From a virus, in IMG/VR virus record IMGVR_UViG_3300025778_000065, positions 1-27,473 of that record: a DNA stretch of 27,473 nucleotides. One strand, given 5' to 3'. Within the stretch, counting starts at the first letter, position 1. Each line of letters begins with the position of its first letter. Positions 3,203-26,306 of the stretch are shown here, piece by piece. Below the pieces are notes generated by a model. It saw only the letters and a program-made list of their open reading frames with translations. It did not search any database and was not told the DNA's origin. The translations under genes were made by a program, and so were the position numbers.

Positions 3203-3220
3203 CACTCTAAAATTAGAGTG
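3203..3220 (-). promoter_or_regulatory. palindrome in the nrdB leader
   Basis: Perfect 8-bp arms CACTCTAA / TTAGAGTG separated by 2 bp, lying between the -10 box and the nrdB start, so inside the predicted roughly 100-nt leader. About 30 nt further on, AGTATC-TTTT-GATACT could form a second hairpin. It could be a repressor site or an mRNA structure. Confidence 0.5.
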
Positions 3221-3234
3221 GTTGCAGTATCCTA

Positions 3235-3263
3235 TCTATAACGAATTATTTTTCCAGTGTAAA
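3235..3263 (-). promoter_or_regulatory. early-type promoter for nrdB-nrdA
   Basis: Minus-strand TTTACA (3263-3258), a 17-bp spacer, then TATAGA (3240-3235). The expected start is near 3228. The -35 hexamer is shared with the promoters at 14873, 17100, 24270 and 26277. Confidence 0.65.
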
Positions 3264-3284
3264 AAAATTGAAACTATTTTTACA
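3258..3284 (-). repeat. A/T inverted repeat at the end of the preceding gene
   Basis: TGTAAAAA / TTTTTACA arms (3258-3265 and 3277-3284) around an 11-nt loop, spanning the stop codon of the upstream gene and the -35 box of the nrd promoter. The stem has little GC, so it is a weak terminator candidate at best. Confidence 0.3.
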
Positions 3285-4618: not shown

Positions 4619-4637
4619 AATATAGAAAGTATTTATT
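4608..4637 (-). promoter_or_regulatory. start-codon hairpin overlapped by late-type octamer
   Basis: AATACTTTC / GAAAGTATT, perfect 9-bp arms (4608-4616 and 4625-4633) with an 8-nt loop that holds part of the ATG at 4618-4616. AATAAATA lies at 4637-4630 and overlaps the 5' arm. With T4 spacing the start would be 4624, just past that arm, so a late transcript could not form the hairpin. Confidence 0.6.
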
Positions 4638-4908
4638 ACGTAGTCTCAGATGGTGGCTTTTCTCCGTTCTTCTTCCAGCAAGCGCAGATATCATCATAAT
4701 CGACCGTGGTTAATACACCACGGTCTTTTATTTTAATGATGTTTTCTACGAACTCGTGAAGTTCAACATCGTTCTTGATATCCTCTCTCGCCGCTTCAAG
4801 AATACGAATCAGCAATGGTACGTTAAGCGATATGACATCCCCTAACGATTCATTTGCACAATCGTATTCAACAAGCATCTGACGATACGCATCGAATTGA
4901 TTACTCAT
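4636..4908 (-). CDS. conserved phage protein of unknown function (90 aa)
   Basis: Begins MSNQFDAYRQMLVEYDCANESLGDVISLNVPLL and continues as helices (IRILEAAREDIKNDVELHEFVENII), ending in a Cys/Lys-rich segment (ICACWKKNGEKPPSETT). I recall similar small proteins next to structural genes in T4-like phages, always unassigned. AGGA lies about 9 nt upstream of the start. It is ATGA-coupled to the preceding 99-aa gene. The late-type octamer of the next gene overlaps its stop codon region. Confidence 0.75.
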   Translation of the reverse strand: MSNQFDAYRQMLVEYDCANESLGDVISLNVPLLIRILEAAREDIKNDVELHEFVENIIKIKDRGVLTTVDYDDICACWKKNGEKPPSETT

Positions 4909-10808: not shown

Positions 10809-11550
10809 CTAAATTGAGATTTTGTAAATAGCCGAAAGGAGACTTTTCCGAAATCGTTTTCAAGGTTTCGAGGTCTTTTATGCCATGGGAAGCAAATGCT
10901 CCACCCTTTATGGCTGCAATACACTCCTGGACTCGTGAAGGATACCTGGCACAGGATATATTCTCCCAGGAATAAGATAATCCTGCCTCTAGAAGGTTAA
11001 AAACAGGTATTCCTGCCCTCTCTGATGCCATTCCAATGTATCGATCGGTGTATCCATATTCTGCATCCCACGGAGTCAATCTCTCCATTGAATCAGTGAT
11101 CTTTTCAAGTGATTCCCTTGTATAGATCTGAGGGTAATGTAGGTAATAATTGGCTAGAAACTTCTTTCCAGGAACAGGAGATACCGGTTCATTCATGAAC
11201 TTAGTTGCCGATATCCATCCTTCCAGAGGGATCGCTCGATCGGGTATCGGTCCCCAACATAGGCTATCATACTCGAAAAGCATCACATACGGATAGTTTT
11301 GATAAGAATCCCTTGCTAGTTTCAGGCATTCATAGACTCTCATGTTTGTTTCCTTGGAATAAGAGCTTACATTATTCACGCTCTGGAATAGCTCGATCTC
11401 AGGATGCTTGATGTGAAGCTTATGCTCTAAAGGTGTTACGATAAGTAAGTGCCCACAGGTCTTCAACCAATAAGGGATATGCCGAAGGACAGTATCTCTT
11501 ACAGAGACATGAGCCATAACAATCCCTAGAACTTTAGATCTATCAAGCAT
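10804..11550 (-). CDS. glycosyltransferase-like protein (GT-A type, uncertain)
   Basis: The start chosen is the ATG at 11550 (MLDRSKVLGIVMAHVSVRD, 248 aa), 8 bp inside the end of the preceding glycosyltransferase and with AAGG about 10 nt upstream. The open frame extends 28 codons further, but only inside that gene. VMLFEYDSLCWGPIP (about 90-104) has an EYDS element following a hydrophobic strand, resembling the DxD metal/nucleotide site of GT-A enzymes. NYYLHYPQIYTRESL, TPWDAEYGYTDRYIG and FASHGIKD are compatible with a sugar-transfer fold. Paired with the next gene, it suggests modification of a virion or cell-surface glycan, or of DNA. The family assignment is tentative. Confidence 0.6.
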   Translation of the reverse strand: MLDRSKVLGIVMAHVSVRDTVLRHIPYWLKTCGHLLIVTPLEHKLHIKHPEIELFQSVNNVSSYSKETNMRVYECLKLARDSYQNYPYVMLFEYDSLCWGPIPDRAIPLEGWISATKFMNEPVSPVPGKKFLANYYLHYPQIYTRESLEKITDSMERLTPWDAEYGYTDRYIGMASERAGIPVFNLLEAGLSYSWENISCARYPSRVQECIAAIKGGAFASHGIKDLETLKTISEKSPFGYLQNLNLV

Positions 11551-12301
11551 AGTAATAAGCCTTATATTTCTCTGAGAGTCTACCGAAATTGTCTCGATGA
11601 GCGTCCTTGACTCGATCCCATTTCTGAGGTCCATGCTCGTGCAGGATGTATGTTTCGTTTGTATTCCTACCCCAGATGTATGACCAGTTTAATTGTCTAG
11701 GAAGTTGAATGGCTCGATTTTGCTTCATGAGTATGTGACCGACCATCGTCCAGGCAATCTGCTCAAGCATATTGTTATTATTTCTTTCTTTGCAGAACGC
11801 GTATTGAAGCTCGTATAAGGAAGCAATGTCCTTTCGATCCTGAGAGTTATCCGTTCCAAAGTAAAGTACTCCTGCATTGCATTCTCGAACATACTCATTG
11901 AGTCCAGAGATCTGTCTCACGTTTGGATCATCACCAATCCCAAATGCAACTTTTGGAAGTCCTTCGATGATACGAGTAGGATCCTTGACGAAGAATGCAT
12001 CAGCATCGAGTATGATGCATCTTCCTAGAACTTGAATCGATTGACACAGGAGAGTTCCTTTTATGTCAAAGTTCTTACCTTTTCGAACGATCGAGGATAT
12101 AGCGTTTGTATAAAATCGAAGGTAAGATAAAGGTTCAGTTCCATCCTTATCGTAAGGAACTGCGTCAGTCGGAATAGGAACATCTAAGTCACAAATAAGC
12201 ACGACTCGATATTTGCATCCTGACTTTTTATATTGCTCGATCCAAGCGTTAAGAAGCGGCAAGAAAGCCGCGTCACCAAAGTGCGTGATTCCAATAATCA
12301 T
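11543..12301 (-). CDS. GT-A family glycosyltransferase
   Basis: 252 residues. The N-terminus MIIGITHFGDAAFLPLLNAW has the Rossmann-like start of nucleotide-sugar transferases. GRCIILDADAFFVKDP (about 93-108) carries the DxD motif (DAD) that binds the metal-nucleotide. NAGVLYFGTDNS and HEHGPQKWDR near the C-terminus fit GT8-like enzymes. The donor and acceptor sugars are unknown. It overlaps the PD-(D/E)XK-like gene as ATGA and runs 8 bp into the second transferase, so the two are probably co-translated. Unlike the alpha-glucosyltransferase at 21238-22446 (GT-B), these lie among late genes, so DNA is not the obvious target. Confidence 0.75.
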   Translation of the reverse strand: MIIGITHFGDAAFLPLLNAWIEQYKKSGCKYRVVLICDLDVPIPTDAVPYDKDGTEPLSYLRFYTNAISSIVRKGKNFDIKGTLLCQSIQVLGRCIILDADAFFVKDPTRIIEGLPKVAFGIGDDPNVRQISGLNEYVRECNAGVLYFGTDNSQDRKDIASLYELQYAFCKERNNNNMLEQIAWTMVGHILMKQNRAIQLPRQLNWSYIWGRNTNETYILHEHGPQKWDRVKDAHRDNFGRLSEKYKAYYYA

Positions 12302-13212
12302 TCTCCAGATAATTTAATTGAAGACGCTAATTTCTCGTCTTTATATTTCAAACGAATAGACATAATAAGCATTTTATTTGATTCAACTCGAATACTATTA
12401 TCTCCTGAAAGTTTAAGATCCACTCCATATTTAGAAATAAAGTCGCACTTCTCATTGAGTATAGGATGAGTAATCTCTGCCGTGAAAGGCGATTGCTCAC
12501 CCTTACCTGTAATCTTTACGTATGGAGGATACACTATCTCTGCATCAAGCCATTCATCGAGCATGTGATGCACTAATTTATGAGGCTTCATTCGGCTATA
12601 GCATTCAAAAATATCGTCACGAAGATCCATTAATAGTTTATCACCTATAGCTATCGTTTGCTTACGAACTCCAGGATTCGATCGGAGATAAGCTTTTCTC
12701 TTCTCTGCAGATTCTGGAAGACTTAATTTTTTAACAGCGTCTTCAGTGACCTTTTCAATCTTCTTTACTAAATTAAGCTTTAGTATTTTATCAATCGTGC
12801 CAATTCCTGGATTCTTAAAAGCAATATCTTTTTTAGCTGAACTTGTTGACTTTGCAGAGATACCAAGATAGCCATCGGCTGGTCCTGAAGAAAATTGAAC
12901 AAGAACATCGGCAGGATTTCCATTCTGAGGAACTTCTCTACCAACTATTCGAGTGATAGCTCCTGGCTTTGAAGTCCACCACACTCCTTTGATCCCTCCA
13001 GTGTATTTGTTCTTGTAAGCCCATTTCAAAAATTCTTGAGCCATCTTTTCTGCACGGCCAATTGCAACTTCAGCCTCTTCTTTAGTGATCTCTCCAATCC
13101 TCTTGTTATAATGATTCTGCGCGTCAGCACCGACCTTTGCCCAATTCCGATTGGCTAAAACAAAGGCAATGTGTAATTCGTTGACGTCGGAGATAAGAGT
13201 ATTGGCAGTCAT
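12298..13212 (-). CDS. unknown protein with possible PD-(D/E)XK-like core
   Basis: 304 residues. The N-terminal region contains NELHIAFVLANRNW and a long helix; NPADVLVQFSSGPADGYLGI followed by SAKST (about 99-123) resembles the AD...(S/E)xK core of PD-(D/E)XK nucleases. The remainder (KRKAYLRSNPGVRKQTIAIG, LVHHMLDEWLDAEI, FTAEITHPILNEKCDF) is not recognised, though I recall similar unassigned proteins in T4-like marine phages. The start is buried in an 11-bp hairpin whose loop carries a late-type octamer. A nuclease role is only a possibility; catalytic residues need a structural alignment. Confidence 0.6.
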   Translation of the reverse strand: MTANTLISDVNELHIAFVLANRNWAKVGADAQNHYNKRIGEITKEEAEVAIGRAEKMAQEFLKWAYKNKYTGGIKGVWWTSKPGAITRIVGREVPQNGNPADVLVQFSSGPADGYLGISAKSTSSAKKDIAFKNPGIGTIDKILKLNLVKKIEKVTEDAVKKLSLPESAEKRKAYLRSNPGVRKQTIAIGDKLLMDLRDDIFECYSRMKPHKLVHHMLDEWLDAEIVYPPYVKITGKGEQSPFTAEITHPILNEKCDFISKYGVDLKLSGDNSIRVESNKMLIMSIRLKYKDEKLASSIKLSGE

Positions 13213-13239
13213 TTGGTCTTATTTATTCGACCAAATGAC
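13208..13239 (-). promoter_or_regulatory. 11-bp start-codon hairpin with late-type octamer in its loop
   Basis: GTCATTTGGTC / GACCAAATGAC, perfect arms (13208-13218 and 13229-13239) with a 10-nt loop containing AATAAATA (13227-13220). The ATG at 13212-13210 is inside the 3' arm. A transcript started from the octamer (predicted +1 at 13214) would lack the 5' arm; read-through mRNA from upstream would have the start codon paired. Strongest such element in the window. Confidence 0.7.
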
Positions 13240-13245
13240 AAACCT

Positions 13246-13743
13246 TTACTTTCTTATATAGTCTGGATCATACTTGTTCCAGGAAGCATTCTTAAACTTC
13301 TTTTGCTGCGAGAAGTTAGCATGAAGTCCTACTTCTCTACCATAAGCATCAAACTCCCATGGTAAATCGTAGTAGTCTATCTTTCGAGTATCGTATTTCT
13401 TTTTCTTCCAGACTATGACATGTAGGCTGCTCGTATCTCTTAATTCTCCGAGTACGTACTGCTTTACGTGAGCGCACTCATGAGCAAGTGCGCGAAGCAA
13501 CCCATGTATCTGCATACTGGCGTCAATGTTTATCTCAAATTCTCTTGGCTCATCTTCGTCATCCTCCCACATTACGTCAGCACGGCAACCACACCTTTCG
13601 TAATAGTCTTTTCTGAGTTTAATAACGAGCATTACCTCATAGTAATTATGAGGTAATAACTTCTTCAAATAAAAGCTGGCCGCTTCTGCCACCAGCTCTC
13701 TTTGAAGTTTTGATCCGCCTGAGACTGCTATCTCACTGTCCAT
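13246..13743 (-). CDS. SprT-like zinc metalloprotein
   Basis: 165 residues from the ATG at 13743. A longer reading frame reaches a TTG at 13785 but lies within the upstream gene. The motif LAHECAHVKQY holds HExxH (HECAH), and a downstream Glu in PWEFDAYGREVG could be the third ligand, typical of SprT/zincin-like phage proteins. EFEINIDAS before it matches the strand that precedes the helix in this fold. Members of this group are usually proteases or metal-dependent chaperone-like proteins; the target here is unknown. It overlaps the small membrane protein gene by 11 bp and precedes a hairpin controlling the next gene. Confidence 0.75.
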   Translation of the reverse strand: MDSEIAVSGGSKLQRELVAEAASFYLKKLLPHNYYEVMLVIKLRKDYYERCGCRADVMWEDDEDEPREFEINIDASMQIHGLLRALAHECAHVKQYVLGELRDTSSLHVIVWKKKKYDTRKIDYYDLPWEFDAYGREVGLHANFSQQKKFKNASWNKYDPDYIRK

Positions 13744-13939
13744 TGATGGCCGCAATTTTTCTGTCTTCGTCGGATAAAAGGGCAAAAAGTAAATTAATGC
13801 CTGAAAGCATCAATTCCACGAATGCTGCGTTATAACGGTGGTCAAAAGCATTATGAATGGCAAAGCCAATCATCATTCCTGATGACATGTAACTAAGGCG
13901 ATATAAGTAGTTTTCGGCGAATTTTACAAATCGGTTCAT
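13733..13939 (-). CDS. small membrane protein, unknown
   Basis: 68 residues. YMSSGMMIGFAIHNAF and FVELMLSGINLLFALL are two hydrophobic segments that could form a helical hairpin in the inner membrane; the N-terminus (MNRFVKFAENYLYRLS) is basic and the C-terminus (SDEDRKIAAINGQ) polar. A holin-like role is possible from the layout but unsupported. No Shine-Dalgarno sequence; an imperfect late-type octamer (AATAAATT) is immediately upstream. Confidence 0.65.
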   Translation of the reverse strand: MNRFVKFAENYLYRLSYMSSGMMIGFAIHNAFDHRYNAAFVELMLSGINLLFALLSDEDRKIAAINGQ

Positions 13940-13950
13940 ATAGTAGTAAT

Positions 13951-13958
13951 AATTTATT
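13951..13958 (-). promoter_or_regulatory. imperfect late-promoter-like octamer AATAAATT
   Basis: Two mismatches to TATAAATA. The predicted start is about 13945, 5 nt before the ATG at 13939. It overlaps the end of the preceding 67-aa gene. Confidence 0.35.
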
Positions 13959-14157
13959 CTTCTAGTTTGTTGATGTAGTTGTCTGCGTTGTATTTAGTAA
14001 TCTCTCTGGCCTCTTGCTCGATCTCTCGCTGAGAGACAGGGATTACTCCAAGAGCTATCGTTTCTTGCCTAGCTCCGAAAAGTTTTAATAATTTCTGAAT
14101 AACTGCGGGTTTGTTTACCTTATATCTTCCATCTGGAAGAAGGGATAATAAATTCAT
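13954..14157 (-). CDS. unknown small protein (67 aa)
   Basis: MNLLSLLPDGRYKVNKPAVI followed by amphipathic helices (QKLLKLFGARQETIALGV, SQREIEQEAREITKYNAD). No motif is recognised and no membrane segment. The start has only a weak purine stretch upstream. It is the first coding sequence after the untranslated 14158-14324 interval. Confidence 0.6.
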   Translation of the reverse strand: MNLLSLLPDGRYKVNKPAVIQKLLKLFGARQETIALGVIPVSQREIEQEAREITKYNADNYINKLEE

Positions 14158-14194
14158 GAACTGTCACTCTAACAATTTGTTGACTGAAAAAGAA

Positions 14195-14305
14195 CGAAAA
14201 AAATAAGGATCGAGTTGGCCAAGAGGTTTTTGCTATATCCGTAAGTCAGGCCAGTTATTGTTTTTGTTTTGTTTGTTGTTTAGTTGATCCTAACCAACTC
14301 GATCC
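14195..14305 (-). ncRNA. candidate structured RNA or long-loop terminator
   Basis: Non-coding stretch with perfect 12-bp arms GGATCGAGTTGG (14305-14294 on the minus strand) and CCAACTCGATCC (14218-14207), 75 nt apart, followed at once by TTATTTTTTTCG. The interior has an unstructured CA-rich run (ACAACAAACAAAACAAAAAC) and two GGCC-containing segments able to pair. A short alternative stem AGTTG / CAACT competes with the 5' arm. The whole could be a stable small RNA ended by its own terminator, an attenuator between early and late genes, or a plain terminator with a long loop. It does not fold as a tRNA. Confidence 0.4.
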
Positions 14306-14324
14306 AAAGTGAGAAAAAGACGTA

Positions 14325-14471
14325 TTACTTTTTAATATCGCCTTTGATAGTATCTACTGCATTTTTGATGGTGTCTTCTGTGGCATTGATTTCACCCTGG
14401 AGTTTGGTTCCACAGAAATATCCTGCATAGAAAGAAATACCACAAAGAACTATGATAAAAAATAAGGTCAT
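14325..14471 (-). CDS. 48-aa single-pass membrane peptide
   Basis: MTLFFIIVLCGISFYAGYFC (hydrophobic helix, residues 1-20) then GTKLQGEINATEDTIKN and a short helix ending DIKK. The ATG overlaps the stop of the 118-aa gene as ATGA, good evidence for translational coupling. It is followed by the candidate structured RNA. No family is recognised; small inner-membrane peptides of this kind are frequent among phage early genes. Confidence 0.65.
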   Translation of the reverse strand: MTLFFIIVLCGISFYAGYFCGTKLQGEINATEDTIKNAVDTIKGDIKK

Positions 14472-14824
14472 TTTGAGAGTTGATATAACTGTGGTTGTTT
14501 ACCACGAACGCCAGGACGCTTTGGAGCTTCACCGACGATCTTAGCGTTTTTCTTTACATAATCAACGAGGTACCAATGGCAGATGCCGGTAGCTTCGAAG
14601 ATTTGATGAAGCGTAAATGGAGTCGTAGGGAACTTGAACTTCTCAACGATTTCTATAGCTTCCGATTTTTTCAAACCACGGCGGAAGGATTCCTTCTTAG
14701 GTGCTTTGACTGGCTTTGGAGCCTTAGGAGCACCTGCTGGTGTTGTAGCAGGAGTTGCTGCAGTTGTTTTTGGTGTTTTAGCAGCAGAGTGACCAGCTGC
14801 GATAGTTGTTGTTGACGATTGCAT
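14468..14824 (-). CDS. basic Ala/Pro/Lys-tailed protein with winged-helix-like C-terminus
   Basis: 118 residues. Residues 1-45 are low-complexity (TTAATPATTPAGAPKAPKPV, then KAPKK), like a histone-H1 or linker tail. Residues about 50-118 (SEAIEIVEKFKFPTTPF, TLHQIFEATGICHWYLVDYV, GVRGKQPQLYQLSK) look like a small helix-turn-helix or winged-helix domain. DNA binding is inferred; transcription regulator or nucleoid-like protein are both possible. Its own early-type promoter and AAGAG ribosome site precede it, and it is coupled to the 48-aa membrane peptide. Confidence 0.7.
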   Translation of the reverse strand: MQSSTTTIAAGHSAAKTPKTTAATPATTPAGAPKAPKPVKAPKKESFRRGLKKSEAIEIVEKFKFPTTPFTLHQIFEATGICHWYLVDYVKKNAKIVGEAPKRPGVRGKQPQLYQLSK

Positions 14825-14872
14825 ATATTACTCTTATTGGTTAATGTATTAGTTTCGGATGTTAATCCTGAA

Positions 14873-14904
14873 CTTATAGTACAAAATTAAACGCTTTATG
14901 TAAA
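14873..14904 (-). promoter_or_regulatory. early-type promoter
   Basis: TTTACA (14904-14899), 17 bp, then TACTAT (14881-14876), with TATAAG three bases further. It reads into the 118-aa gene with a leader of about 45 nt. Confidence 0.6.
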
Positions 14905-14929
14905 TAAAAAAGTGATATTTTTAAATTTT

Positions 14930-14956
14930 ATAAGTTGTTGATTATCAGCAACTTAT
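14930..14956 (-). repeat. 13-bp inverted repeat at end of the 230-aa gene
   Basis: ATAAGTTGTTGAT / ATCAGCAACTTAT with one mismatch and a 1-nt centre, covering the TAA stop at 14953. No T-run follows directly, so it is more likely a protein-binding palindrome or mRNA 3' hairpin than an intrinsic terminator. Confidence 0.45.
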
Positions 14957-15645
14957 GTCCAGAAGGTATCACGATTGTCAATAATCCACTTACAGAACTT
15001 CGTGTCCGTATCATTTAACTTCTTTTCTGCAGCTAGAACATCTTTGTAAACTGCAATGTAGGGTCTTTCATCACTTAGATCAACTAAGGCATAAGCAATA
15101 TCTAGATTTCTTACAAGCTGTGCTCTACCCGTCTTTGCATAATCATAATGTTGATGAATTAGCTTGGCTAATTTTTTATGTTCTTTCGTGGAGTCCCAAT
15201 CGATAACTTCAAAACATTTTTTACGCTCGACAAAATCGATTATGCATTGAAGATGAAAGGTAATGATGATATCGCATAAATCAGTTTTCTTAAAAGGAAA
15301 CACTAGATCTCTCATCTCTTTATGAGGATTCGATAATCTATGTTTGAATTTAAGATAAGAATTACGGATTCTTTGCCGTGTATCATATATGAAACTATTC
15401 ATAGTGTTACGAACAAAGTACTGGATTGGATAGTGCTCTCTTACGTACTTATTGAACTTGTCCCATTCACTTTCTTTCTTGGATTTTTTCATATCATACT
15501 TCATTGCAAAAGGCTCGAGATAAATTGGGCATGGCCAAAACCAAACGCTTTTCTCGCGTTTATTAAAAGCTAGATTCAAATAAGAATCTAGAGTATCGAT
15601 TGTAACGTCATCGACGTGGTATCTTGAAATGAATTGTCTACGCAT
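14953..15645 (-). CDS. conserved phage protein of unknown function (230 aa)
   Basis: Rich in aromatic and basic residues: VWFWPCPIYLEPFAMKYD, FVRNTMNSFIYDTRQRIRNS, IITFHLQCIIDFVE, LIHQHYDYAKTGRAQLVRNL. The pattern is soluble and helical with no transmembrane segment. I recall similar unassigned proteins in other large myoviruses. It overlaps the 180-aa gene by 8 bp and belongs to the run of early-type genes downstream of the 17100 promoter. Confidence 0.75.
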   Translation of the reverse strand: MRRQFISRYHVDDVTIDTLDSYLNLAFNKREKSVWFWPCPIYLEPFAMKYDMKKSKKESEWDKFNKYVREHYPIQYFVRNTMNSFIYDTRQRIRNSYLKFKHRLSNPHKEMRDLVFPFKKTDLCDIIITFHLQCIIDFVERKKCFEVIDWDSTKEHKKLAKLIHQHYDYAKTGRAQLVRNLDIAYALVDLSDERPYIAVYKDVLAAEKKLNDTDTKFCKWIIDNRDTFWT

Positions 15646-16180
15646 CTGTGGAATCTATTTCTTCTTGGATTGGTGTATAATCACTAGCATTCTTTTGTGC
15701 ATATTCTGGATTTAGAACTTTGATCCACCCATTATAACTATGAAGAGACCCAATTGATCCCGTCACTTCACAGGTATGAATTGACATGGTCTCGGCCATG
15801 TGTACAATCCCGTTAAAATAACTCCTATAACCATTTAGAATCTCTTGAGCTTTTTCAGGCCATTTCTGTATGATGATTTGAGTATTAGGTGTATACTCTT
15901 GATGGAAATAGAATCGAAGACTTCCATACTTCTCTTTGACTTGATCTGCCACAATCTGAGGAGGATCTAATCGAATATAGTTGTTTTCGACTTCATCATG
16001 AACTACGAACCCAGTGCTATACGTATTCTGTAATGCTTCGCAAAGTACATCTATAAGATGGTACCAACCGTCCTCACACTCAAATCCCCAGCACATAGCA
16101 GTTGTACGCGGATCTCCGTTTCGATTGACGAAGATCTTGGGGTACTTCTTGCAGAGTGAGGAATCGAGTTCAGGACTCAT
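15638..16180 (-). CDS. conserved phage/bacterial protein with CWGFEC motif, unknown
   Basis: 180 residues with MCWGFECEDGWYHLIDVLCE, VKEKYGSLRFYFHQEYTP and MAETMSIHTCEVTGSIGSL. This combination recurs in many phages and some bacteria; in several relatives that I recall the C-terminal part has two CxxC pairs, here reduced to a single CEVTG, so a zinc site may be lost. Function unknown. It starts 3 bp after the 100-aa gene and has only a weak AAGAAAG upstream. Confidence 0.75.
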   Translation of the reverse strand: MSPELDSSLCKKYPKIFVNRNGDPRTTAMCWGFECEDGWYHLIDVLCEALQNTYSTGFVVHDEVENNYIRLDPPQIVADQVKEKYGSLRFYFHQEYTPNTQIIIQKWPEKAQEILNGYRSYFNGIVHMAETMSIHTCEVTGSIGSLHSYNGWIKVLNPEYAQKNASDYTPIQEEIDSTDA

Positions 16181-16183
16181 GAA

Positions 16184-16486
16184 TTAGCTTTCTTGGTTTG
16201 AGGAACCTGAAGACCGGTGGTGAATATCATATGGTTGAGCAAACCAATGGATCGTATCTGTAGATAGTCTTTTCTCTTCTAGATCCATTCTTGCAGCGCG
16301 TTCATTTGCTGTCGCAGTTGCCTTTAATTGAGGAGCTGGACGAGGGAATGAAGTTATACCTCTGCACGTTTTTACGAGTTCAATCATTGCTTTTACTTTT
16401 CGACGGTAGTTGTATGAGTCAAAAAGACGATAGTGCTTTGGATTGAAATCGACTTTTGGTTCTGAACTGTTTTTATATTTTTCCAT
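16184..16486 (-). CDS. unknown protein (100 aa)
   Basis: MEKYKNSSEPKVDFNPKHYR, then YRRKVKAMIELVKTCRG and a polar, low-complexity C-terminus (HRSSGSSNQES). Basic, with no cysteine pair or membrane segment and no family recognised. It lies 6 bp after the 194-aa gene, in the same apparent operon. Confidence 0.6.
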   Translation of the reverse strand: MEKYKNSSEPKVDFNPKHYRLFDSYNYRRKVKAMIELVKTCRGITSFPRPAPQLKATATANERAARMDLEEKRLSTDTIHWFAQPYDIHHRSSGSSNQES

Positions 16487-16492
16487 AGTGTA

Positions 16493-17077
16493 TTATCGAG
16501 TTATTGCAAATGCTAAGTCTTGAAATTTGTGTCCAATATAGATTAAAACGTTGGCGATTCTTTTTGTTACTATCCTGTATGGTCTAGTGTTGAATAAGTA
16601 CTTGTTCTGCCATTTTGCGTTTTCGATCTCTTGGTCTCTCTTCCATCTCTCTAATGATTCTTTCCTGGGACCATTGTCTTCTGCAGTGAACTCTGCAAGT
16701 TTAACTTTTTTGAGTACGCCATTATTAAAGGTGAACATCCACTCGCTGAAGCAATCCCACTTGTCATTGACATCTCGCGTGTAGTCGTATCCGAATACTT
16801 CACCTGTGAATTTTACTTTTTTCAGATATTCGCCATCGTGCTCGAGGTGACCTAGATTGTCAAGAGGACTTTCGGATTTATCTTTTTCCGGAACTATCCA
16901 CCTGCAATTTTTATACTCTTTGACATAAAGCATCTTGTTTTTGATGACATAGTTACTCATGTCATTATTGAAGTCTTTTGTCTGGAGTTGCCAGGACTTC
17001 TTTTTATCGAAGTCTAGCAGACGCATCTCATCATTGAGAGGAAGCTTTTCAGCGTGTAAGTAGTCGAACATTCCCAT
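16493..17077 (-). CDS. phage protein with MGMFDYL N-terminus, unknown
   Basis: 194 residues starting MGMFDYLHAEKLPLNDEMR and continuing SWQLQTKDFNNDMSNYVI. The MGMFD...QTKDF pattern is shared by many unassigned phage proteins. The C-terminal half is basic and helical (ESLERWKRDQEIENAKWQNK), ending with a moderately hydrophobic IANVLIYIGHKFQDLAFAI that might touch a membrane. First gene behind the 17100 promoter; no Shine-Dalgarno sequence. Confidence 0.75.
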   Translation of the reverse strand: MGMFDYLHAEKLPLNDEMRLLDFDKKKSWQLQTKDFNNDMSNYVIKNKMLYVKEYKNCRWIVPEKDKSESPLDNLGHLEHDGEYLKKVKFTGEVFGYDYTRDVNDKWDCFSEWMFTFNNGVLKKVKLAEFTAEDNGPRKESLERWKRDQEIENAKWQNKYLFNTRPYRIVTKRIANVLIYIGHKFQDLAFAITR

Positions 17078-17099
17078 TGTAGTAATTTGTTGAGAGTAT

Positions 17100-17127
17100 A
17101 CTATATCAAGTTTGAGCGGATTGTAAA
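17100..17127 (-). promoter_or_regulatory. early-type promoter
   Basis: TTTACA (17127-17122), 16 bp, then TATAGT (17105-17100). It lies over the end of the 47-aa ORF and reads into the genes from 17077 leftwards. Confidence 0.55.
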
Positions 17128-17249
17128 TCTAAAACAGCATCATTGAATAATTCTTTTTGAACTTCTAATTCAAAGATTGGAATCGTCTTTTCGATGTATG
17201 GTTCGAATGCTTCGGAGATATCTGCAAAAGTCATTTGTTTAGTTTTCAT
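17106..17249 (-). CDS. unknown 47-aa protein
   Basis: MKTKQMTFADISEAFEPYIE followed by KTIPIFELEVQKELFNDAV and DLQSAQT. An acidic, probably helical small protein 6 bp downstream of gene 41. ATG start; the ribosome site is weak. It fills the otherwise empty gap between gene 41 and the 17100 promoter, whose -35 box lies in its last codons. Function unknown. Confidence 0.55.
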   Translation of the reverse strand: MKTKQMTFADISEAFEPYIEKTIPIFELEVQKELFNDAVLDLQSAQT

Positions 17250-17255
17250 AGGTGA

Positions 17256-24261: not shown

Positions 24262-24269
24262 AAGGGATT

Positions 24270-24298
24270 AATATAAGTTATTTTTCAGTATTTGTAAA
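24270..24298 (-). promoter_or_regulatory. early-type promoter of the modification operon
   Basis: TTTACA (24298-24293), 17 bp, then TATATT (24275-24270). GTTTACAA matches the T4 early -35 region. It starts just after the TAG of the nuclease-like gene and is about 10 nt from the next ATG. Confidence 0.7.
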
Positions 24299-26268: not shown

Positions 26269-26276
26269 ATTTGTAT

Positions 26277-26306
26277 CCTATATTAGTTTTGGCTAGTTGT
26301 AAACAA
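26277..26306 (-). promoter_or_regulatory. early-type promoter upstream of the MazG-like gene
   Basis: TTGTTTACA (26306-26298) then TATAGG (26282-26277). Spacing is 15 bp if TTTACA is the -35 hexamer or 18 bp if TTGTTT is. It follows the gp43 stop directly. Confidence 0.5.

Follow-up and report, generated by a model that had tools for sequence, protein, structure and literature searches.

Organization of the locus

The DNA analysed here, called the window below, is the whole stretch of 27,473 nucleotides. It represents a fragment of a T4-like virus, as matches to phage families are found for UvsX, a DnaB-type helicase, DNA polymerase and ribonucleotide reductase; cyanophage helicases, at about 60% identity, are the nearest to its own helicase. 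All long genes of the window are on the minus strand, which is also the coding strand at the element considered in this work. The element occupies a 167-nt gap (14158-14324) that contains no sense-strand ORF of at least 20 aa, on which ground a coding role was rejected. An earlier reading of this DNA made from the sequence only had described the interval as free of ORFs; this holds for the sense strand, but two short TTG-started antisense ORFs touch the gap.

The features of the locus are listed in Table 1. Since a scan of the window with a sigma-70-like consensus returns a near-chance number of matches, support for the promoter at 14904-14876 comes from the aligned TTTAC...TANNAT of related phages, where this arrangement recurs before the equivalent genes. 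The product of the first gene has no match in Pfam or PHROG. The start of the second gene overlaps the stop of the first (ATGA), and the stem of the element begins about 20 nt past the stop of the second. Because the same promoter arrangement precedes the equivalent genes of relatives, the predicted promoter, the two genes, the hairpin and the U-tract are best read as one short and compact unit.

Table 1. Predicted features at the locus, in the order of transcription.
Feature	Position	Strand	Basis or remark
ATCAACAACTTA motif upstream of the promoter	14931..14942	-	common to promoters of relatives
Putative sigma-70-like promoter, TTTACA - 17 nt - TACTAT	14876..14904	-	consensus scan and aligned relatives
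118-aa ORF	14468..14824	-	C-terminal half conserved in relatives
48-aa ORF with hydrophobic N-terminus	14325..14471	-	96% identical in L003
5' arm of the putative terminator stem	14288..14305	-	12 perfect pairs, then 6 further, 3 of them G-U
63-nt loop	14225..14287	-	between the stem arms
3' arm of the putative terminator stem	14207..14224	-	pairs with the 5' arm
U-tract TTATTTTTTT, expected RNA 3' end	14197..14206	-	sequence and shuffle test
67-aa ORF, syntenic marker	13954..14157	-	downstream of the putative terminator

A long-loop hairpin followed by a U-tract

The perfect 12-bp arms noticed in the sequence-only reading are present on the minus strand as GGATCGAGTTGG (14305-14294) and CCAACTCGATCC (14218-14207), 75 nt apart, and the T-run that it placed directly past the 3' arm is TTATTTTTTT (14206-14197; nine of ten letters are T) when the minus strand is read. 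Additional pairs, including G-U pairs, bring the helix to 18 bp. The loop then measures 63 nt; its first half is A/C-rich and its second half contains CTGGCCTGACTTACGGATATAGC. The 136-nt stretch with the element has a minimum free energy of -27.6 kcal/mol, with a z-score of -3.4 for the minus strand vs -1.2 for the plus strand. The G-U pairs are a weak guide to the strand, as the plus strand also keeps 15-16 of the 18 pairs.

In 300 dinucleotide shuffles, perfect 12-bp pairs within 100 nt occur 0.33 times per window, and none of them has at least 8 T in the next 10 bases; the window contains exactly one such pair, the element. Nowhere else in the 27 kb does the coding strand have a T-tailed stem of at least 9 bp. 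On the plus strand, a terminator-shaped hairpin (GACCGTGGT/ACCACGGTC followed by TTTTATTT) is seen at 4702-4725, antisense within ORF 4636-4908.

Hairpins at the same place in related phages

Relatives were found by scans with the proteins that flank the element. One contig (L002) is identical to the window, L003 is a close relative and L004 is more distant. The order of genes, a 118-aa homologue followed by a 67-aa homologue, is kept in at least about twenty further loci, where the contribution of the 67-aa protein is counted among the matches listed. Neither protein has a relative in annotated phages, and bacterial genomes gave no match for the 118-aa family.

In L004, L012 and L023-L045 a hairpin of 12-17 bp is found at the syntenic place after the homologue of the 118-aa gene. 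These hairpins have loops of 4-9 nt, the core GGCTGGTTNCC/GGTGGCCAGCC and mostly T-rich tails; the tails are weak in L012 (2/8 T) and in L023 and L045 (4/8 each), and the U-tracts of the window and L003 are the best of the set (7/8). In 12 of the 13 syntenic intervals tested, the observed stem was unmatched by any of 300 shuffles, and the one exception, L037, is due solely to a best stem that exceeds the G-U limit used. The aligned 11-bp core, taken from 10 distinct sequences, is changed on both sides at 8 of its 11 pairs and has a covariation score of 0.752, vs 0.282 for shuffles and no more than 0.242 when the register is slid. The covariation in relatives that had been suggested as a check on the element is thus seen, with the limit that the hairpins were chosen for pairing and their alignment on the TGG/CCA core was made by hand, which makes them 100% paired by construction; the evidence that this set provides is its synteny, shared core and number of pair types.

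Among the relatives, the long loop is present only in the window (63 nt; L002 is identical) and L003 (57 nt), which amounts to two independent sequences. Searches of IMG/VR with two exact motifs and one gapped motif from the loop returned only the same two contigs and four unrelated chance matches. A further perfect 12-bp stem, T-tailed and with 50 nt in its loop, is found in L037 (4741-4814, plus strand) within the coding sequence of a convergent gene; it was rejected as a second long-loop case because about this number is expected by chance for the 757 kb of strands scanned.

Two further observations concern the short-loop loci. In L040 (2041-2111), L041 (2349-2419) and at the same site of L037 and L038, the loop CCTAAGTTRTT complements the promoter-associated ATCAACAACTTAGG located just downstream, and a rival stem of 13-17 bp can be drawn between the two. 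At nine loci (L010, L012, L023, L029, L034, L038, L039, L041 and L045) a promoter layout is repeated in which TTGGTAATCAACRACTTAGG is followed by TTTACT and then by TAGTAT or TAGGAT. Since the ATG lies only about 6-12 nt past the last of these motifs, the layout suggests transcripts with very short or absent leaders.

Divergence from the closest relative and the origin of the loop

Comparison of the window with L003 shows that, out of 18 stem pairs, 12 are unchanged, two are changed on both sides (A-U to G-C and U-A to C-G), three have a change in one partner that still allows pairing, and the end pair no longer forms. Taken alone, this comparison is not significant, as random transitions preserve pairing equally well in 17% of trials (P 0.17). 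The element is 82-88% identical between the two contigs, inside a patch of the mosaic alignment that is otherwise 98-100% identical; this divergence may reflect fast change or recombination. The region 11009-16500 is strongly mosaic relative to L016, with blocks of 98-100% identity between blocks of 55-80% and sharp edges near 14470 and 13211.

Two deletions, one of 6 nt in a CAA-type repeat and one of 2 nt, account for most of the difference between the loops of the window and L003; the two share AUCAACUAAACAACAAAC and ACUUACGGAUAUA at the ends of the loop. The 7-nt loop of L004, CTAAACA, is found again where the long loop of the window begins. The long loop most likely arose in this lineage by expansion within an ancestral short-loop terminator and is the presumed derived state. 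Growth by repeat slippage fits both the length difference in the CAA-type repeat and the recurrence of CTAAACA; slippage in CAA/CAAAA repeats may have helped to expand the loop to 57-63 nt.

A probable intrinsic terminator with an expanded loop

Three possibilities had been offered for the element in the sequence-only reading: a phage small RNA, an attenuator with two folds and a transcription block. The last is favored by the intrinsic-terminator anatomy and by the syntenic, covarying hairpin of relatives. We consider it probable, at about 85%, that the element is an intrinsic (Rho-independent) terminator of the minus strand with a lineage-specific long loop; that it terminates, where and how efficiently we infer from its anatomy and from the comparison with relatives. 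Such a terminator would close the transcript of the small operon with the 118-aa and 48-aa genes, which would start some 570 nt ahead of the hairpin, at a sigma-70-like promoter belonging to the operon itself. The polymerase would transcribe the 5' arm, then the long A/C-rich linker and then the 3' arm, upon the emergence of which the 18-bp helix would shut with the polymerase at the U-tract, and the RNA would be let go near 14197-14206.

Like known intrinsic terminators, the element has a stable stem with a U-tract directly after it, lies on the coding strand past the last stop codon of an operon and belongs to a locus whose stem is kept through compensatory change (8 of 11 core pairs, in hairpins picked for pairing). 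It differs from them in loop length, with 57-63 nt where a few nucleotides are usual, a short loop being typical of this class and not strictly defining: the median terminator loop in Term-seq data is 4 nt, and TransTermHP limits the loop to 13 nt (PMC12207403). The short-loop hairpins of the T4-like contigs L004, L032 and L038-L041 share with the element the position past the 118-aa homologue, the covarying core and the T-rich tail, and are unlike it in their loops of 4-9 nt; several relatives also have a promoter containing the ATCAACNACTTA motif directly past the hairpin. Related phages keep the stem, the U-tract and their place while differing about tenfold in loop length. Loop-limited finders such as TransTermHP would not call the element, and since standard finders limit loop length, operon ends of this kind may be missed in phage maps. 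The occurrence of long-loop and short-loop versions at one locus is also a natural experiment on the extent to which termination is slowed by loop length. It is possible, though unlikely, that the expanded loop of some 60 nt, A/C-rich and largely unpaired, binds a protein, a small RNA or a ribosome and thereby delays the closure of the stem; if so, the terminator would gate transcription from the operon into the downstream genes in a tunable manner.

Alternative roles of the element

Many RNAs derived from 3'-UTRs consist of a long unpaired loop, a stable closing stem and a 3' U-tract, and the element has this general shape. It might therefore give a discrete phage small RNA of ~110 nt, either cut from the 3' end of the operon transcript and kept or started from a cryptic promoter, with the A/C-rich loop as the part that binds a target or a protein. 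The identity of the loop ends AUCAACUAAACAACAAAC and ACUUACGGAUAUA in L003 agrees with such a role, but identity with L003 is high around the element anyway, so identical loop parts say little; moreover, the next relatives are without the long loop, and motif searches of IMG/VR found the loop sequence in no other viral contig. The element belongs to no Rfam family (no match at gathering scores and one chance-level match, with E of 0.77 and 11 bits vs a gathering score of 40), and no tRNA or tmRNA was found. On balance, we regard the small RNA as very improbable.

The attenuator supposes two mutually exclusive partners for the 5' arm, the 3' arm and the loop (GGUUAGG-A-UCA with UGRCCURAC), between which a signal would choose. 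The helix with the loop is possible in both the window and L003, where two one-sided changes keep its pairing, and RNA that lacks the 3' arm folds into it. However, the 5' arm together with the loop is not more stable than with shuffled loops (117 of 500 and 108 of 500 are as low), the terminator fold is far more stable (-26.4 vs -7.1 kcal/mol for the alternative helix), and the element sits after genes and not in a leader. The letters of the competing short stem (GTTGGT/ATCAAC) and of the paired GGCC segments (14217-14220 and 14249-14252) pointed out earlier are indeed there, but neither structure is kept in L003: the short stem loses one pair, and GGCC/GGCC becomes GACC/GACC, which cannot self-pair. 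The two-fold switch was rejected, since L003 no longer has the competitors pointed out earlier and the one alternative helix shared by both contigs is not above shuffles. The element resembles transcription attenuators in that the 5' arm of its terminator stem has some alternative pairing, and it differs from them in that these alternatives are not conserved or not above chance, in its location after genes and in that no sensor was found. Regulated attenuation is accordingly hardly to be expected here.

The least probable alternative is a hairpin that stabilizes or processes the 3' end of the mRNA and itself does not terminate transcription, for which speak the unfavorable effect of long loops on fast closure and the weak U-tracts of some relatives, and against which speak the U-tracts of both long-loop versions, the best of the set with 7/8 T, since we know of no need for a long U-tract in a mere stabilizing hairpin.

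Position of the element relative to early and late genes

The element had also been proposed to separate early-type from late-type genes. The late-like motifs AATAAATA/TATAAATA are found on the coding strand at 13227, 10808, 8129, 4637 and 287, i.e., only downstream of the element, and four of the five sit 13-27 nt ahead of a start codon; NATAAATA is the late promoter reported for T4-like cyanophages (PMC2984593). Inspection of the gaps by eye places TTTACA-type promoters upstream of the element at 17078-17255, 24262-24298, 26269-26306 and 14825-14952, and also downstream of it, at 3206-3279, ahead of the gene of the small ribonucleotide reductase subunit. Thus, the late-like motifs agree with the proposed separation, but the ribonucleotide reductase genes, which are not typical late genes, are on the downstream side too. 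The element is a plausible boundary of transcription programmes, though not a clean one, as the gene content is mixed.

The minus strand of the gap 17078-17255 also contains a small ORF, below the listed length, that starts with MKTKQMTFADISEAFEPYIEK, and TTTACA...TATAGTAT lies downstream of this ORF, ahead of the next gene. A perfect 11-bp hairpin, GTCATTTGGTC-GAATAAATAA-GACCAAATGAC, is present on the minus strand at 13208-13239, at the edge of a recombination patch, and is identical in L003. Its loop carries the late-promoter-like AATAAATA and its 3' arm contains the start codon of ORF 12298-13212, an arrangement that could couple a late promoter with a translation start.
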